DNA of 64,000 bases from NCBI RefSeq assembly GCF_001693515.2, contig NZ_CP042968.1, forward strand, positions 6,200,001 to 6,264,000, read 5' to 3'. How positions within the stretch are numbered: position 1 is the first letter of the stretch; each line of letters opens with the position of its first letter. Position numbers and translations under genes: made by a program. The stretch comes from Bradyrhizobium paxllaeri (GTDB taxonomy: Bacteria; Pseudomonadota; Alphaproteobacteria; Rhizobiales; Xanthobacteraceae). Below are positions 8,531-16,746 of the stretch, one piece after another. The notes beneath the pieces were generated by a model, which saw only the letters and a list, made by a program, of their open reading frames with translations, had not been told where the DNA came from and searched no databases.

Positions 8531-9502
8531 CTACCGGCCTCTCACTCGCAAGTTGAGCGCGGCCTGTCCGTCCTCTGTGCCCAGGATGTAGGATTTCACT
8601 CTGGGCAGAGCCTTCTCCATGGCTTCAAGATAGAGGCGGGTGCGCGTGAGCTCGGGGGCCTTTGCATACTCTTGCTGTAAAGCCTTGAGGCGGGTGGTCG
8701 TGCCTATGGCTTGCGCGATGCGCTGCTCACGCCGGCTCTTCGCTTCCTGGACCAATGTGTGGGCCTCCCCGCGAGCCTTAGGCAGGAGGTTGGCCGCATA
8801 GACCCGCGCCTCGTTGCGTGAGCGCTCGCGATCGGCCATGGCGTCCGCCACGTCTTGAAAGGCCTGTGCCACCGCCGCGTCAAGTGTCATGGCCATGATG
8901 CTGGAAGCCGTGATCTGAACGCCGCTTCGGTAGCCATCGAGGAGCTCCTGCGTCCGTATCTTCACCCTATCCTGGATGGCAAGCCGGCCCGTAGTTAAGA
9001 CCTCATCCACCGGCATGCCGGCCAAAATCTGGGTGAGCACACTTTCGGAAAGCCCGCCGATCAGCGCTCTCGTGTCCTCGACATGCAGCAGGAAGTCGGC
9101 AGGATCGCGTATCACGTATTGTAGCACGAGCGCGATGCTTAGGATGTTCGTGTCCCCAGTCAGCAGCTCCATCCCAATCACGGCCTCCTGCTCGCCCTCG
9201 GGCAAAGCGAAGCCCACGCCAACTTTCGAGACACTTGTGGTCTTAACCACGTCGACCCGGTCGATGGGCCAGGGGAAACGCCAGTGCATGCCGGGGCCCA
9301 GGCGGGCATGGGGCGCGCCGAGGCGGCGCGCCAAAGCTTGCTCGTCCGTTGCGACGAGATGGAAGCCCGTGGCGAAGTAGGCCGCGATCAGCAGGAGCGA
9401 GAAGACGATACCTCCCCGGAGCGCGTGCGCGCGCCAGCGCGGATGTCTGGGGGCGCTTTCCGTGTGGTCCTGCGGCACCACGTGTTCGTGACTGGTCGTC
9501 AT
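8531..9502 (-). CDS. SPFH/band-7 protein, HflK-like (last gene of SPFH operon)
   Basis: A 323-residue HflK-type protein. One membrane anchor lies near residues 28-48 (GGIVFSLLLIAAYFATGFHL), followed by the SPFH core (TDEQALARRLGAP, GPGMHWRFPWPIDRV) and a coiled-coil region (ARVYAANLLPKARGEAHTLVQ). In enteric bacteria HflK pairs with HflC in a large membrane cage around the FtsH protease. Here the operon has two HflK-like and two HflC-like members and no ftsH. It overlaps the HflC-like gene upstream by ATGA (9499-9502). The short N-terminal tail is His/Pro-rich (MTTSHEHVVPQDHTE). Paralogue status relative to a housekeeping hflK cannot be judged from this window. Confidence 0.85.
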   Translation of the reverse strand: MTTSHEHVVPQDHTESAPRHPRWRAHALRGGIVFSLLLIAAYFATGFHLVATDEQALARRLGAPHARLGPGMHWRFPWPIDRVDVVKTTSVSKVGVGFALPEGEQEAVIGMELLTGDTNILSIALVLQYVIRDPADFLLHVEDTRALIGGLSESVLTQILAGMPVDEVLTTGRLAIQDRVKIRTQELLDGYRSGVQITASSIMAMTLDAAVAQAFQDVADAMADRERSRNEARVYAANLLPKARGEAHTLVQEAKSRREQRIAQAIGTTTRLKALQQEYAKAPELTRTRLYLEAMEKALPRVKSYILGTEDGQAALNLRVRGR

Positions 9503-10533
9503 GGCGATTCCCCGCGTGACGGTGGCCGCTGACCTTCGACACCAGCGCCCACGGTCTCACCGTTCCTGGGACGAGCCTTGGGCGGCGGGTTAGGATCCAG
9601 CGCGACCGATGCGCTAGGCTTCAGCATCTGCAGGAGTTCGGACTCGGCCGGCAGGAATAGGGTCGTCTTGTCGTCGAGTATACGATCATAGGCCTCTAGC
9701 GTGCGGACGAGCTTGAAGAAGGGTAGGTCGGCGCCAAACTCGCGCGCGTAGACACGCATCGCCTCAGCGTCGCCTTCGCCGTCGAGTTGCCTTGCATGTT
9801 CGTTGGCCTCGGCGAGGATGCGTGCCTTCTGCCGATCAGCTTCGGCGATGATCCGCTTCGACTCGGCCTTGCCGTCGGAGCGCAGCTGCATGGTGATGCG
9901 GGCCCGCTCCGCTTTCATCCGCTCGAAGACGCTCTGCCGGTTCTGCTGAGGCAGGGCGAGTTCACGCAGACCGAGATCGATCACCTCGATACCGTAGGCG
10001 GGCGCAACAAGAGCCTGAACACCGGCTCGTACCTCCGCGACTATCGCCCCGAAGCGGTTCTCCGAAGCATGCGGCGCGATGAGGGAGGCGAAGCTATGGC
10101 GGCCGAGCACTGCACCGACTTCACCGACGATAGCCTCCGTAAGCCGCTGCTCTGCATCGTCGCGCGTGGCAAGCGTCGCGAGGAAGCGCGTCGGTTCGGC
10201 GATGCGCCAGGTAGCGAGTGTGGCAACGGACACGTTCTTCCTGTCCGCCGTGACGTACTCAACGGGTCGAGTGCTCAAGTATAGGAGGCGCTTGTCGAAC
10301 CGCTGCACACGCTCGAAAGGCAGTTTGAAGCCTAGGCCCGGCTCGTCAACGAGTTGCACGATCCGGCCGAAGCGCGTGACCATCCCGTGCTCAGTGATAT
10401 CTAACGTGAAGAGGCTCGCAAGAGCCGATAGCACCAGCACGGCGATAGCGGCAGGCGTCAGCACCCGGAGCGCTACCCTCCGTCTGCCGCCCGGGCGGCT
10501 CATTCTGCCAACTCCAGAGTGAGCTGCCTTCAT
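9499..10533 (-). CDS. SPFH/band-7 protein, HflC-like
   Basis: A 344-residue HflC-type protein: a basic N-terminus, a membrane helix near 24-47 (LTPAAIAVLVLSALASLF), an SPFH domain starting ITEHGMVTRFGRIVQ with GLGFKLPFERVQRFDKR, and a long Ala/Glu-rich helix (KAESKRIIAEADRQKARILAEAN) like the one that forms the HflKC cage wall. The C-terminal 40 residues are Pro/Arg-rich and extend beyond the usual HflC end. ATGA overlaps with the genes on both sides (10530-10533 and 9499-9502) place it in the middle of a translationally coupled trio. It is the probable partner of the HflK-like product at 8531-9502. Confidence 0.86.
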   Translation of the reverse strand: MKAAHSGVGRMSRPGGRRRVALRVLTPAAIAVLVLSALASLFTLDITEHGMVTRFGRIVQLVDEPGLGFKLPFERVQRFDKRLLYLSTRPVEYVTADRKNVSVATLATWRIAEPTRFLATLATRDDAEQRLTEAIVGEVGAVLGRHSFASLIAPHASENRFGAIVAEVRAGVQALVAPAYGIEVIDLGLRELALPQQNRQSVFERMKAERARITMQLRSDGKAESKRIIAEADRQKARILAEANEHARQLDGEGDAEAMRVYAREFGADLPFFKLVRTLEAYDRILDDKTTLFLPAESELLQMLKPSASVALDPNPPPKARPRNGETVGAGVEGQRPPSRGESP

Positions 10534-12263
10534 CGGTTGCCCCCCGCGCTTATCGGAGGCTCAAGGAGCCAAAGGTCGAAGTCTTTGATCGCACCCGCCT
10601 TGGGCCGAACAAGCTTGTGCACCTTCGGCAACACATCCTCGATCGTCTCGATCTGCAAGCGGAATGCGGCCAATTCGGGCGCTTGCCGAAACGCCTCGAC
10701 CTGTAGGCTGAACGCTAGCGCCTCGCCGCGAGCGCGGCGGACCTGTTCCTCTTGGACGGCCAGGGCACCCTCGACCGTCGCCGCGGCCTCCCCTTTCGCT
10801 TTGTTTACCTCCTCGGCGGCGAACCCCTTGGCGCGGTTGATCGTGCGCAGCTTGTCCTCCTGTGCACTAGCCACGTCCCGCTCGGCGTCGTGTGCCTCCT
10901 GGGGCGAATGCACGTAGACGAAGCGCACCGAGACGAGCGCGATGCCGGCGTTCAGACCGTCTAGGCGCGCTTGAACAAACTCATGCAGTCGCGCCTCAAC
11001 CTCGGCTCTGGCGTTTGTCAGCACCGCGTCGATTCGCTGAGTGGCAATAACGCTACGCAGCGCTGCCCGAGTAACGCTCCGGACGAGCGCCTCAGGCTCC
11101 GCCAGGTTCGTGACGTAGGCTACTGGATCCTTGACGCGGTACTGCACGGTTGACCGAAGATCGATGAGGTTGGCGTCACCGGTCAGGAGGAAGGACTCGC
11201 CCTCCAGCACCTCACGCTGGAACCAGGAGCCCTTGGCCTTGATCGCCTCCGGCACTGGATTGGAGGGGCCGCCTACTGTGAGCCGCTCGCGGGCGAGTGT
11301 GCGCGTTATCAAGCTCTCGTCCGCCTGACTGCGGAAACCGAGCTCTGCACTCCGCGTGCGTTCGGTTTCGACGAGACGGTGCGTCTCGATTGGCCAGGGC
11401 AGGCGGTAGTGTAGGCCTGGGCCGAGATCGGCCGCGACGATGCGAGCAAACCGGAGGCGCAGGCCGATCTCCCCGGACTGGATCGTAAAGAAGCCGCTTG
11501 CGAACCAGAGGAGGACCAGGCCTGCCAATGCCGCGATCTTAACGCGGGTGTCAGTAACAAACACACGGGTAGCGGCCGCAAACCTCTCGCGCAGCCGGGT
11601 CCACTCCGGCGGCGCGTGGGTGTGCGACACGTGCGTGTGGAGCGAGATTTCCCCGGTCCGGAGCTCACACACCGCCTGTCGCAGGATTTGAGCGGATGAC
11701 CACAGGAACAATCCCGCCATGATGGCGGCCACGATCAGGTCGGGCCACTTGGTCGCGGTTGCCCAAACGCCGAGCGCAGCGAGCATCACGGCGACGTTGC
11801 CGATCGCATCGTTACGCGAGCAAAGCCACACGGACCGCACGTTGGCGTCGCCATCCTTGTAGCGCACGAGGATGACGACGCTAGCCACGTTGGCAGCGAG
11901 AGCCAGGAAGCCGATGACGCCCATGATCTCGGCGCGGGGCACACCGAGCACAAGCACGTGATAACCGGTCGTTCCAAACACCCACAAGCCCATCAGCGTG
12001 AGGCTGACGCCTTTTACAAAGGCCGCACGCGCCCGAACCCGAACGGAGGCACCGATAACCGCGAGGCTGATACCGTAGGTCGCCGCGTCGCCCAGAAAGT
12101 CGAGAGCATCGGCCTGCAGCGCTTGCGAGCCGGCGAGTGCGCCGGCTCCCATTTCCACCAGGAACATCGCGGCGTTGATCGCAATGACGATCCAAAGCCG
12201 TCGCTTGTAATCAGCCGACAAGCCTTCGAAGGTGGCGCCTTCTCCGCAACAGGCTACGCCCAT
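10530..12263 (-). CDS. Fusion protein: cation diffusion facilitator-like domain + HflK-like SPFH domain
   Basis: A single 577-residue frame from ATG 12263. The first ~205 residues look like a CDF-type cation transporter: MGVACCGEGATFEGL, then about six hydrophobic segments, with acidic/polar intramembrane motifs ADALDFLGDAATYG and SRNDAIGNVAV where CDF proteins bind metal. A His-rich linker (HTHVSHTHAPPEW) leads to a second membrane helix and a full HflK-type SPFH domain (SGEIGLRLRFARIV, GPGLHYRLPWPIETH) ending in a coiled coil. I chose 12263, not the longer frame to 12380, because the latter overlaps the acetamidase gene and adds 39 residues without family character. ATGA overlap with the HflC-like gene below. 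No frameshift or stop separates the parts. Confidence 0.85.
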   Translation of the reverse strand: MGVACCGEGATFEGLSADYKRRLWIVIAINAAMFLVEMGAGALAGSQALQADALDFLGDAATYGISLAVIGASVRVRARAAFVKGVSLTLMGLWVFGTTGYHVLVLGVPRAEIMGVIGFLALAANVASVVILVRYKDGDANVRSVWLCSRNDAIGNVAVMLAALGVWATATKWPDLIVAAIMAGLFLWSSAQILRQAVCELRTGEISLHTHVSHTHAPPEWTRLRERFAAATRVFVTDTRVKIAALAGLVLLWFASGFFTIQSGEIGLRLRFARIVAADLGPGLHYRLPWPIETHRLVETERTRSAELGFRSQADESLITRTLARERLTVGGPSNPVPEAIKAKGSWFQREVLEGESFLLTGDANLIDLRSTVQYRVKDPVAYVTNLAEPEALVRSVTRAALRSVIATQRIDAVLTNARAEVEARLHEFVQARLDGLNAGIALVSVRFVYVHSPQEAHDAERDVASAQEDKLRTINRAKGFAAEEVNKAKGEAAATVEGALAVQEEQVRRARGEALAFSLQVEAFRQAPELAAFRLQIETIEDVLPKVHKLVRPKAGAIKDFDLWLLEPPISAGGNR

Positions 12264-12306: not shown

Positions 12307-13341
12307 TCATCGCGGCAGGTAGCGCTTGTCGAGTTGACAAGCCACGGAGTAATTTGGATCGACAACGTTGGCGATCTCAAGCTGAGCTGCTTGGCCTAGA
12401 AGCTGAACCGCCTCGATCTTGTCGTAGCCGTGATCCTGCACCAGCCAGTTGACGAGATCGACGCAGGCGATCCGCAGCGCATCGATCAACGGCCGCGTGC
12501 TGCCGATCGACATAATCATTCTGTCGTTCTCAAGCCGGGGCCAGTTGATCTTTTTTCCCTTGATGAGATTCACCGTGAAGGTGACGTCAAACGAGGTCTC
12601 AACAGCGGCGCCGTCCACCTCGCCGTCACCCTGCGCTGCGTGCCCGTCACCCAGCATGAAGAGCGCACCCGGCTCGAAAACCGGGAAAGACATCGTCACA
12701 CCCTCAACGACCTCATTGAAGTCCATGTTCGCGCCATGAGGGCCGGGTATCAGCGAGCTGATGCACTCCTTGCCAGCAGGTGCGGTGCCGATTGTTCCGA
12801 AGAATGGCCGCAACGGGACCTCGACTTTGCCGATTTTGCTGTTGGGCAGGTCGAGCACACCGACCATCTTCGATCTGTCGAACCGCCAGATAAAGAGCCG
12901 GTCCGGCACCGGGTCGGTTATCATCGCCGTCTTGTATTCGGGCGCCAATGCTCCGAAGTAGGGGATCGACGCTCCCCAACCCCAGTCTCTGTTGAGGCCG
13001 ATCCTGTCGATACGCACGACGAGCGTATCGCCGGGCTCGGCGCCCTCGATGAAGAATGGCCCCGTTTGCGGATTGACTCTGGTAAGGTCGAGTCTCGGAA
13101 ACACCGTCTTGTCGGTCGGCTGGAAGACGTCGTTCGCCGCGTCCTTGGTCCTTGTGATCACCGTGTCGCCTGGCTTGATGCGGATCGCCGGCGGATGCGC
13201 ATGGCAATAGGTGAAGTAAACAGTGTCTCCTGGGTCATAGCGGACTTCCGCGGCCGAGGCAGGGGCGATCCCAATAACTACGAGTGCCGAAGATAGAGCC
13301 ACGATGGCCGCTCGTGCCGACTGCTCGCTCATTCGAATCAT
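12307..13341 (-). CDS. Exported acetamidase/formamidase family protein
   Basis: A 344-residue protein of the acetamidase/formamidase (FmdA_AmdA) family, which hydrolyses short-chain amides to ammonia and the acid. A signal peptide is visible (ARAAIVALSSALVVIGI, cut after APASA), which is unusual because characterised formamidases are cytoplasmic. Core family stretches are present: GDTVITRTKDAAND, TGPFFIEGAEPGDTL, GPHGANMDFNEV and MLGDGHAAQGDGEVDG. The ATG at 13341 has an excellent AGGAGG 7 bp upstream. It sits between an HflC-like gene (33 bp upstream) and the CDF-HflK fusion (43 bp downstream), all on one strand, so it appears to be an integral member of the operon. Substrate is not predictable. 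Confidence 0.85.
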   Translation of the reverse strand: MIRMSEQSARAAIVALSSALVVIGIAPASAAEVRYDPGDTVYFTYCHAHPPAIRIKPGDTVITRTKDAANDVFQPTDKTVFPRLDLTRVNPQTGPFFIEGAEPGDTLVVRIDRIGLNRDWGWGASIPYFGALAPEYKTAMITDPVPDRLFIWRFDRSKMVGVLDLPNSKIGKVEVPLRPFFGTIGTAPAGKECISSLIPGPHGANMDFNEVVEGVTMSFPVFEPGALFMLGDGHAAQGDGEVDGAAVETSFDVTFTVNLIKGKKINWPRLENDRMIMSIGSTRPLIDALRIACVDLVNWLVQDHGYDKIEAVQLLGQAAQLEIANVVDPNYSVACQLDKRYLPR

Positions 13342-13374: not shown

Positions 13375-14352
13375 CTATGGGGGCGGCATGAGATCTCCGC
13401 TCGTCATCTTATGGGCGTCCTTTCTCGCACTGTCGGCCAAGCTTGCCGGCGGCTTGGCGCGCTTATGGAAACCGCTGTCGTACAGTAGGCCGAAGAGATC
13501 GGAGTTCGCCGGCAACACCATCGTCGTGCCCTCCTTGACGAACTTGCGCGACGCGTCGAGCGTCCGCCGCAGCGCGTAGAACTGCGGTGCCTCGCTAAGC
13601 GAGTCGGCGTAGATGCGGGCCGCCTCTGCTTCGCCAGCGCCGCGGTGCCACTGGGCGACCTTGAAGGCCTCGGCTAGAATGCTCGTCTTCTCGCCCTGAG
13701 CCGCGGAACGGATCTTGAGGCCTTCCTCCTCACCCTCAGAGCGGTAGCGCATGCTGATTGCGGCGCGCTCGGAGCGCATGCGAGCGTAGACCGTGAGCCG
13801 GTTGCGCTTAGGGAAGTCAAAGCGCAATAGCTGCACGTCAAGGACCTCGATGCCATAGTCTCGAAGCGCAACATTCCGGCACTTTGCGGCGACCTCAACG
13901 AGCACGACCTCTGCTCGATAGGCTTCGGTCGAGACAAAGGCAGCGAGCGGACTTCGGCCGATGGCGGCGCCAAGCTCCCCAGAGAGGATGTCCCCCAAGC
14001 GCGATTCCGCACCCGCCTTGTTGAGAACCGTCTCAAAGAAACGTTTGGGCTCTGATATGCGCCACAAGACGGCGGCCGCTGCCGTCACGGCGGTCTTTTC
14101 AAGCGTCAGGAATTCGTTCAGTGGGGGCTGGTAAACAAAAAGCCGGCCGTCGAACTTGGTCACGCTTTCGTACGGCAGCTTCACGCCAAGACCCGGCGTG
14201 GTGACCACCTGCACCGGCCTGCCGAACGACGTGACAACGGCCCGCTCCCCATCGCCAACGGCGAAAAGACATAACGTGGTCGCCACGACAGCGCCAAGCA
14301 CTCCCGCGGCGCCCAGAATAGCTTGCCTAGGCTTCGAGCTTGAGCGCGCCAT
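13375..14352 (-). CDS. SPFH/band-7 protein, HflC-like (first gene of SPFH operon)
   Basis: A 325-residue HflC-like protein: an N-terminal membrane helix (ILGAAGVLGAVVATTLCLFAV, about 12-32), then an SPFH domain (GERAVVTSFGRPVQ, GLGVKLPYESVTKFDGR), the conserved WRISEPKRFFE stretch and a long helix (RSEGEEEGLKIRSAAQGEKTS). It is the promoter-proximal gene of the five-gene minus-strand cluster and may pair with the CDF-HflK fusion two genes downstream. The C-terminal 45 residues are Lys/Pro-rich and not part of the fold. Classical HflC interacts with FtsH; no ftsH is nearby, so the partner protease, if any, is unknown. Confidence 0.85.
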   Translation of the reverse strand: MARSSSKPRQAILGAAGVLGAVVATTLCLFAVGDGERAVVTSFGRPVQVVTTPGLGVKLPYESVTKFDGRLFVYQPPLNEFLTLEKTAVTAAAAVLWRISEPKRFFETVLNKAGAESRLGDILSGELGAAIGRSPLAAFVSTEAYRAEVVLVEVAAKCRNVALRDYGIEVLDVQLLRFDFPKRNRLTVYARMRSERAAISMRYRSEGEEEGLKIRSAAQGEKTSILAEAFKVAQWHRGAGEAEAARIYADSLSEAPQFYALRRTLDASRKFVKEGTTMVLPANSDLFGLLYDSGFHKRAKPPASLADSARKDAHKMTSGDLMPPP

Positions 14353-15318: not shown

Positions 15319-16746
15319 TTGTCCTGGCCCACCCGAGGGAGCGAGATGCGAGAACGCGGTGGAAGCAAACAACCGGTCAAAGGTCGGCGCGCGAATAGGG
15401 CTCACAAAGTGTCCATGGCCGCCGCATCCATCGCCGACCTACAGAATCAGGTAGGCGCTCTCGCTGGCGAACTGAAAGAGGCGCTTGAGCAGCAGACGGC
15501 TACCGCGGAGATTCTCCGCCTGATCAGCGCCGTGCCGGCCGATCCGCAGCCGGTATTCGAGTTGATCGTGCGCCGCGCCGTCGCGCTTTGCGGCAGTTTG
15601 TTCGCGAACGTGTTCCGCTTTGATGGAGACCTCATCCATTTCGTCGCCAGTCACAACGTCGGGCCGAGCTACGTCGATATGCTTCGAGCGACGTACCCGA
15701 TGCGGCCCGATCATTCTCAGGTATCCGGACGCGTACTGCTTAATCAATCAGTGGTCCGGCTGGCCGATGCGCTTTCCGATCCAGACTACGATCAGCGGTT
15801 TCCCCGCGCCATGGGTTGGCGTCGCATGCTGGGAATGCCTATAATGCGCGATCGCGATGCGCTCGGCGTCATCGTGGTGGGCTGGGCCGAGGCCGGACCT
15901 GTCGCTAAGGCCCAGGAGGATCTTCTGAAGACCTTCGCGGACCAGGCGGTAATCGCGATCGAGAATGCCAGGCTGTTGAATGAATTACGCGAGCGCAACG
16001 AGGAGATCGCCGGCTGGAACCGCGATCTGAAAGCGCGGGTCAAGGAGCAGGTTGAGGAGCTGGGCCGCGTTGGGCGGCTGAAGCGGTTCCTTGCGCCACA
16101 GCTTGCCGAAATGATCGTCTCGCAGGGCAATGAAAAGATCCTAGAGAGTCATCGCCGTGAGATCGTTGTCGTATTCTGCGATCTTCGCGGCTACACCGCC
16201 TTCACCGAGGCCGCCGAGCCCGAGGAGGTTTTGGATTTCCTGCGCGAGTATCACGGCGAGCTGGGGCGTCTAATCAGCCAGTTCGAGGGGACGCTCGACC
16301 AATTCTCGGGTGATGGGATCATGGTGTTCTTCAACGACCCCGTGCCTGTCCCCAACCCGGCCGAACGTGCGGTCAAGATGGCCGTTGCGATGCGCGAGGC
16401 TGTGTCGACGCTGATCGCCGCGTGGCGCGAGCGAGGTCGCGAGTTGGGCTTTGGTGCTGGCATCGCCCAGGGTTACGCGACCTTGGGCCAGATCGGATAT
16501 TCCGAGCGCTCCGGATACACTGCGATAGGCACAGTGTGCAATGTTGCGGCACGGCTCTGCGGCGAGGCTAAGGACGGCCAAATTCTGATCAGTAAGCGCG
16601 TAAACGTGGCGCTCAACGGAAGCGTAGCGACTGAACAAATTGGCGCTCTCGCATTGAAGGGTCTCACCCAGCCGGTTGTCACCTACAACGTTCCGCTCAC
16701 CGCTAGTCAACCGACTCTCCGCGTTATAGACGGAGGTAATCACTAG
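15319..16746 (+). CDS. GAF-domain class III adenylate/guanylate cyclase
   Basis: Up to 475 residues. A coiled-coil lead-in (LQNQVGALAGELKEALEQQ) precedes a GAF domain (about residues 70-220, ILRLISAVPADPQPVFELI to DQAVIAIENARLL), then a short coiled coil and a class III cyclase domain from about 275. The metal Asp is in VVVFCDLRGYTAFTE, the second acidic site in QFSGDGIMVFF and the Asn/Arg pair in GTVCNVAARLCG, so it should be active. A TTG opens the frame at 15319; ATG 15346 and ATG 15415 (MAAASIADLQ) are alternatives, and 15415 fits the domain start best. No membrane segment is seen. It probably senses a small ligand through GAF. It is divergent from the SPFH operon. Confidence 0.85.
   Translation: MSWPTRGSEMRERGGSKQPVKGRRANRAHKVSMAAASIADLQNQVGALAGELKEALEQQTATAEILRLISAVPADPQPVFELIVRRAVALCGSLFANVFRFDGDLIHFVASHNVGPSYVDMLRATYPMRPDHSQVSGRVLLNQSVVRLADALSDPDYDQRFPRAMGWRRMLGMPIMRDRDALGVIVVGWAEAGPVAKAQEDLLKTFADQAVIAIENARLLNELRERNEEIAGWNRDLKARVKEQVEELGRVGRLKRFLAPQLAEMIVSQGNEKILESHRREIVVVFCDLRGYTAFTEAAEPEEVLDFLREYHGELGRLISQFEGTLDQFSGDGIMVFFNDPVPVPNPAERAVKMAVAMREAVSTLIAAWRERGRELGFGAGIAQGYATLGQIGYSERSGYTAIGTVCNVAARLCGEAKDGQILISKRVNVALNGSVATEQIGALALKGLTQPVVTYNVPLTASQPTLRVIDGGNH

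Follow-up and report, generated by a model that had tools for sequence, protein, structure and literature searches.

In a 64,000-nucleotide stretch of the Bradyrhizobium paxllaeri genome (contig NZ_CP042968.1, positions 6,200,001 to 6,264,000; hereafter the window), we studied a gene encoding a CDF cation transporter domain fused to an HflK-type SPFH domain, together with the five-gene operon to which it belongs. The fusion gene is a single open frame of 577 codons on the minus strand (10530-12263), as the original prediction, made from the letters of the window alone, had proposed, and its 577-aa product matches the Pfam families PF01545 and PF01145 (Band_7) and the NCBIfam HflK model TIGR01933. 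The PF01545 match reached 48.8 bits (cut-off 26.6), satisfying the CDF family profile; the NCBIfam model TIGR01297 gave 68.4 bits, under its cut-off of 82.35, and TIGR01933 gave 165.6 bits, just above its cut-off of 159.4.

The CDF domain covers residues 1-205 (11649-12263) with six transmembrane (TM) helices, and a seventh membrane helix, starting at residue 238, begins the SPFH half (residues 238-577; 10530-11552). In a structure prediction of the monomer, residues 15-205 adopted the six-helix transmembrane CDF fold and superposed on residues 7-211 of YiiP, while the modelled SPFH half matched HflK (7vhq_E) and displayed the SPFH fold with its long C-terminal helix. Profile searches and model thus agree with the predicted combination of a CDF-like part of about 205 residues and an HflK-type SPFH domain. 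YiiP and ZnT (CDF/SLC30), which resemble the window CDF domain in their six-helix fold and in the position of their TM2 and TM5 site motifs, carry a cytosolic C-terminal domain of their own; the fusion lacks this domain and has in its place a linker and the SPFH part, with only 34 residues separating the last CDF helix (to residue 203) from the helix at 238.

Two-residue metal-site motifs were found in both expected helices. The TM2 motif D55xxxD59 (12087-12101) is kept in 16/16 and the TM5 motif C148xxxD152 (CSRND; 11808-11822) in 17/17 of the window-type rows that cover them in our alignment A3, where both pairs fall on the HxxxD pairs of more distant CDF fusions, a Cys replacing the His in TM5. 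HxxxD/HxxxD is itself preserved in 41/42 distant-type CDF fusion rows, and the site motifs were also seen in 18/18 free CDFs of the genus Bradyrhizobium. The earlier expectation that the polar motifs DFLGD and NDAIGN are retained was therefore right for D55xxxD59 and needed correction in TM5, where the motif is C148xxxD152 and NDAIGN holds only its last Asp. Likewise, the linker (residues 204-237; 11553-11654) is His-rich in the window, as noted at the outset, and variable in relatives, with one His in P0016 and none in P0017; judging from these sequences, its His-rich character is inessential.

Because independent genomes and metagenome clusters carry the same single frame, a sequencing error or chimera was ruled out and the frame is considered genuine. 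None of the internal start codons near the linker was preceded by a Shine-Dalgarno-like motif in the five sequences scanned, and the linker of L009 has lost one codon with the frame preserved. A point against the fusion as one constrained frame is the weak third-position bias across the 34 linker codons (7, 6 and 10 variable sites at the three positions; 12 codons vary in residue and 4 silently), which indicates that the linker is little constrained. Altogether, there was no joining error, relatives conserve the fusion and its CDF metal-site residues are retained, so that none of the outcomes that the original prediction had named as fatal to it occurred.

The window protein turned out to belong to a class of transporter::SPFH fusions. 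A search with its sequence found 540 proteins; among the 120 listed, 18 carry both CDF and Band_7 domains in a single frame, 86 a PF03773 permease and Band_7, 5 P-type ATPase domains and Band_7, and 11 Band_7 only. A second search, with a distant CDF fusion from a deltaproteobacterial metagenome-assembled genome (MAG; L053), found 143 proteins, with 95 CDF and Band_7 combinations, 9 P-type ATPase domains, 2 permeases, 1 EamA and 13 Band_7-only proteins among the 120 listed. Using NCBIfam models, the SO_0444 Cu/Zn efflux model was passed by 4/4 permease fusions tested (356-383 bits, cut-off 300), the heavy-metal P-type ATPase model by P0074 (583 bits, cut-off 346) and the CDF model by the L053 fusion (88.4 bits, cut-off 82.35). 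No description of such a fusion was found in the titles and abstract starts of the open-access literature, in line with the initial remark that no characterised protein of this design was known. Each part comes from an established family; the open-access literature searched yielded no account of their covalent joining, of transporter exchange within one SPFH lineage or of the cassette described below.

We then compared the SPFH parts in a careful tree of 90 rows, nine of the first 99 having been dropped (seven flagged long branches, L133_Kb and P0234). All 56 transporter-fused SPFH rows formed one clade (bootstrap 99, Shimodaira-Hasegawa-like approximate likelihood ratio test (SH-aLRT) 90), which adjoins the HflK-b proteins of the cassettes (81/74) and lies apart from the 13 canonical HflK rows, with which the window fusion did not group. 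The branch joining the fused clade and HflK-b apart from canonical HflK had moderate support (84/96), and in the first 99-row tree the fused clade (SH-aLRT 93) also took in L130_Kb. The type of transporter changes at least seven times within the fused clade. The four window-type rows group together (100/100) inside a set of permease fusions, whose enclosing 14-row clade (99/99) also includes three P-type ATPase fusions; most simply, these sequences suggest, the window's CDF domain replaced a permease. Approximately unbiased (AU) tests, which used the quick 99-row tree and were chosen with that tree already in view, rejected a single origin both of all CDF fusions (p 1.6e-4) and of all permease fusions (p 2.8e-72). 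Since the window CDF domain is 67-75% identical to the free CDFs of the genus (about 210 aa; 18 loci), which resemble it in sequence and site motifs but have no SPFH part, versus 20-30% to the distant CDF fusions in A3, we consider that it was recruited anew.

The fusion gene is the third of five minus-strand genes, separated by gaps of 33 and 43 nt and then by two 4-nt overlaps. The first, HflC1 (13375-14352), is HflC-like (TIGR01932, 152.0 bits, cut-off 134.4) and is followed by an acetamidase/formamidase-like gene, FmdA_AmdA (12307-13341; PF03069, 118.1 bits, cut-off 27; PDB 5ubu, E 1.3e-60), which ends 43 nt upstream of the fusion and whose product has an N-terminus that looks, by eye only, like a signal peptide. 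Downstream, a second HflC-like gene, HflC2 (9499-10533; TIGR01932, 168.2 bits, cut-off 134.4), overlaps the fusion by 4 nt, and is itself overlapped by 4 nt by an HflK-like gene of the HflK-b type, HflK2 (8531-9502; TIGR01933, 195.2 bits, cut-off 159.4), which groups in the tree with HflK-b of other cassettes. Identical 4-nt overlaps were seen at L036 and L038. Upstream of HflC1, the DNA is conserved near the gene in the four loci compared, with no regulator motif recognised.

An HflC partner adjoins the fusion well beyond the window: the order fusion-HflC-HflK was found in 30/30 distinct loci with a whole cassette, counting each place once and requiring all three genes at length (window, L036-L047, L049-L052, L054, L111, L112, which is the same place as L053, L128, L130 and L131-L138; the fusion is cut by a contig end at L043, L046 and L051, and the N-terminal part at L130 is not a recognised transporter). 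With repeats included, 58/60 rows of the fetched loci of the class show fusion, HflC and HflK, and the other two, L048 and L108, end inside the fusion. Because metal transporters of unrelated families have joined a single SPFH lineage, with the order of the genes conserved, the idea of transporters placed in an SPFH ring gains weight. At L047 (2714-4876), the frame of a permease::HflK gene in an alphaproteobacterial MAG is broken within the SPFH part.

A more conventional reading would make the fusion an ordinary FtsH modulator that does the work of HflK, with the CDF part as a passive membrane anchor or a regulated cargo. The TIGR01933 equivalog score and the modelled HflK fold speak for it, and the Escherichia coli HflK/HflC dome around FtsH (PDB 7vhq, 7wi3, 9cz2; PMC12048511) shares with the fusion the SPFH fold and the HflK/HflC pairing. 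That dome has no transporter in its chain, however, and works with FtsH, and canonical HflK rows fall outside the fused clade in our tree, which contained no E. coli row. Moreover, the window genome has a further HflK-like gene (6435835-6436683 of the contig) with a weaker adjoining match (6434924-6435484) that we took for HflC, the fused clade and HflK-b stand apart from canonical HflK, and a passive anchor needs neither kept site residues nor swaps for other metal transporters. We consider this reading improbable.

We instead propose, with a probability of roughly 0.6, that the fusion is one of the subunits of a dedicated HflK/C-like dome in the periplasm and brings a metal exporter into the dome wall. 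Both termini of CDF proteins are cytoplasmic, as is the start of HflK, whose SPFH part is periplasmic; the topology of the fused protein is therefore consistent. Since this topology fits and since an SPFH ring could replace the absent CDF C-terminal domain, presumably taking over its assembly role, the fusion can be read as a subunit in the wall of a dome that handles metal. Together with the HflC-like and HflK-like products of its operon, the fusion would build this dome on the inner membrane, facing the periplasm. Its N-terminal CDF domain would lie in the membrane at the dome wall and move zinc, or a transition metal related to it, out of the cytoplasm. The exporter would be an exchangeable module, represented in relatives by an SO_0444-type permease, a heavy-metal P-type ATPase or another CDF. 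Such a dome would serve metal handling beneath it, most likely the supply or confinement of the exported metal, and the neighbouring secreted hydrolases would be its candidate clients. This proposal starts from the single frame, the modelled folds, the kept site residues, the gene order, the exchange of transporters and the metal-related neighbours of several cassettes; from these we infer the ring assembly, the topology, transport and its direction, the metal and the clients.

SPFH domes can indeed house transporters, since stomatin domes were reported in a preprint to enclose aquaporin-1 or UT-B (PMC12407830). Like the proposed structure, these are SPFH domes holding transporters in a patch of membrane, but the transporters are separate proteins, the system is human and water and urea are carried instead of metals (PMC12407830).

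A second system that bears on the proposal is the hmtA locus of Pseudomonas aeruginosa (PA2434-PA2439), reported to contain three HflK/HflC-like genes besides the gene for the P-type ATPase HmtA (PMC4542158). It resembles our locus L130, a Rhizobium plasmid cassette in which a P-type ATPase follows three SPFH genes, in combining HflK/HflC-like genes with a metal P-type ATPase. The P. aeruginosa protein P0295 is 45% identical to the SPFH protein of L130 and has a multi-helix N-terminal part; without proof, we take it to be PA2439. The locus differs from the fusions in that this N-terminal part is not recognised as a transporter and the ATPase is encoded separately. Deletion of znuA was reported to raise PA2437, PA2438 and PA2439 by 14.4-, 10.6- and 9.0-fold (PMC4542158), and N-acetylcysteine, acting as a zinc chelator, to raise the same three genes slightly (PMC9431628). 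Zinc depletion also raises the encoded proteins in a further report, whose text states significance for PA2438 (by one method) and PA2439, unlike its own table, which gives p-values of 0.184 and 0.065 for PA2439 (PMC11761036). Finally, the PA2439 promoter was reported to be bound by Zur in vitro (PMC8531726). Many relatives of the L130 SPFH protein occur in Pseudomonas and Rhizobium, and P0295 itself displays in alignment an apparent tandem duplication of about 50 residues.

Several observations weigh against a dome with a metal exporter in its wall. The monomer model has a low predicted template modelling score (pTM, 0.52), so that the placing of the two halves and the ring assembly stay conjectural. 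Not all partners fit: P0240 (803 aa) has an EamA transporter, a type not known to export metals, fused to its SPFH domain, and the N-terminal parts of P0235, P0238, P0239 and L130 (5368-7518) appear multi-helix by eye and are not named by Pfam. One distant CDF::HflK fusion, P0153, has lost both site Asp residues and may be inactive in transport, judging from its sequence. In TM5, the window type has a Cys where the distant type has a His; since a Cys is unusual in TM5 of CDF proteins, any metal exported by the window fusion may be other than zinc. The fusion is also rare: in an even class-level draw of 289 genomes searched with our profile A2, only the window's genome (523.8 bits; next 276.8) scored above canonical HflK. 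No secreted hydrolase was seen at L133 and L135 among the neighbours scanned or looked at, L135 having MgtE. As to Pseudomonas, HmtA is described as an importer (PMC4542158), and hmtA itself was not zinc-repressed in one study (PMC8531726).

Within the genus, 50/265 genomes match the fusion at 1e-60 or better. The full-length CDF fusion is present in 7/265 (94-100% identity), the HflK part was matched within open frames of 736-813 aa in 5/265, all five being PF03773 permease::HflK fusions, and 38/265 have only a free CDF. True matches to A2, several of which are rows of A2 itself, range from 350 to 569 bits. With this profile, 6/391 genomes of the window's family were found (four CDF and two permease fusions), 8/85 of the order of G265 at 1e-40 (seven with fused frames at eight loci, one a short fragment), 2/395 of the phylum of G265 at 1e-90 (one being the canonical HflK of L109, 305.5 bits), and 7/95 of the phylum of G272. 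G271 and its relatives are a small phylum-level group, and an HflK-a match was found there in 5/5 genomes (L113-L117), with four permease fusions and L116 cut by a contig end. Since A2 at 1e-90 missed the distant CDF fusions of G814 and G770, both drawn in the phylum of G265, what these draws measure is the window's branch, and they underestimate the class as a whole. P0215, used as the query against 249 genomes of the phylum, gave no match, which shows nothing by itself.

The cassette itself is probably mobile, since flanks mostly differ between loci (those of L036, L037 and L038 beyond the cassette are mostly unmatched in the other 17 loci compared, a few matching one or two) and since a phage-type integrase piece (PF00589; 7641-8135, minus strand) lies immediately downstream of the window cassette. 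In a plasmid search, no record spanned 80% of the window fusion or of P0116, and one spanned 80% of P0167. A conjugative plasmid of Aquibium oceanicum carries a CDF::HflK-HflC-HflK cassette near genes for a heavy-metal P-type ATPase, PCu(A)C, SCO and CopD; its fusion is annotated as HflK only, and we confirmed the CDF part.

This plasmid neighbourhood, together with the patchy distribution and the fact that all named partners except EamA are metal-transporter families, would suit a role in metal resistance, in which the dome clusters and stabilises exporters and removes surplus metal. Such a role is possible, though less likely than not: the Pseudomonas relative is induced by zinc depletion rather than excess in the published data (PMC4542158, PMC9431628), the window cassette has no outer-membrane or RND gene, and related CDFs occur free of any SPFH part in the 38 genus genomes mentioned above.

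As for the neighbours of the cassettes, FmdA lies within the cassettes of the window's branch (window, L036-L042, L044, L045, L047-L049 and L111); at L112, a Cyclase-domain gene stands ahead of the cassette in the same orientation, with two others on the opposite strand at a distance of 5-8 kb; and metallophosphoesterases with N-termini that look signal-peptide-like by eye occur near L131, L132, L134, L136 and L137. PF00149 has 37 matches in 7 genomes, and 7 of them fall within 5 kb of the 8 cassettes versus 0.12 expected; counted by lineage, 3/6 have one (chance 6e-5), with three of the six lineages in one tree clade, and this enrichment was computed after the neighbour genes had been seen. 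In a Pfam tally of 78 of the 106 neighbours, belonging to 13 cassettes (L044, L045, L050, L131, L136 and L138 omitted as near-duplicates of kept lineages), PF00149 (5) came first and PF03069 (4) tied second with Response_reg. Both fell outside the first 25 families in a control of 90 of 132 neighbours from 16 canonical HflK/C loci (L056, L061, L062, L065, L068, L070 and L074 omitted), and each may have up to 2 members there, because only the first 25 families were shown. Neighbour genes came from a simple script that looks for open frames and can go wrong in G+C-rich DNA. At L138, a ZIP zinc transporter directly follows HflK-b and is followed by an M1 peptidase, with an Fe/Mn superoxide dismutase on the other side; L050 and L052 have N-termini resembling ZIP (by eye) at the ZIP position, L050 again with a dismutase.

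FmdA, cyclases and metallophosphoesterases require metal. The space under the dome could be imagined as a metallation chamber, filled by the wall exporters, from which these hydrolases, secreted in apo form, would take metal before their release to the periplasm. The FmdA of the window-branch cassettes, the Cyclase gene of L112, and the metallophosphoesterases, whose family leads the tally of cassette neighbours with PF03069 tied second, agree with this idea. We hold it only tentatively and as rather unlikely, since its support is neighbourhood: the FmdA loci descend from one ancestral cassette and represent a single association, L134, L135 and L136/L137 are also one clade, the enrichment is post hoc, the signal peptides were judged by eye and the metal need of the hydrolases is general background. 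In addition, L128 and L130 have metal transport genes instead, and L133 and L135 show no hydrolase. The chamber and the resistance role were each judged as separate claims, and both could hold together.

The broadest form of the exporter-dome proposal would be a new class of machine in bacteria, an SPFH dome in the periplasm with covalently joined, interchangeable metal transporters in its wall that concentrates exported metal and loads secreted metalloenzymes; as a whole, we regard this as doubtful. The original prediction did not go beyond a single protein to its class, its operon or the metalloenzyme genes nearby. The fusions bear on what SPFH domes contain and do, and on how bacterial periplasmic metalloenzymes acquire their metal. 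Here, the cargo of the dome would be a metal transporter encoded in the same chain, whose type was swapped several times while the dome part was kept, and since the partner lies in the same chain, function can be approached with a single protein and a clean structural case. They also indicate that genes named only HflK, FtsH modulator, can belong to metal-handling systems.

Some further candidates and records deserve mention. L109 (G775) appeared to have a new N-terminal partner of about 550 aa and was ruled out, Pfam recognising only Band_7 in what reads as an ordinary HflK behind a chance open frame; the start of L117/L138 (833 aa) is probably overextended in a similar way. The database record P0022 of Bradyrhizobium archetypum is a 332-aa HflK, whereas the full 577-codon frame is open at locus L038 of the same species, and the annotated start codon of P0022 apparently conceals the fusion. 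Two comparably short records are P0020 and P0021. Upstream of the window cassette, on the opposite strand (15319-16746, plus), lies a gene for a protein with GAF and guanylate/adenylate cyclase domains.

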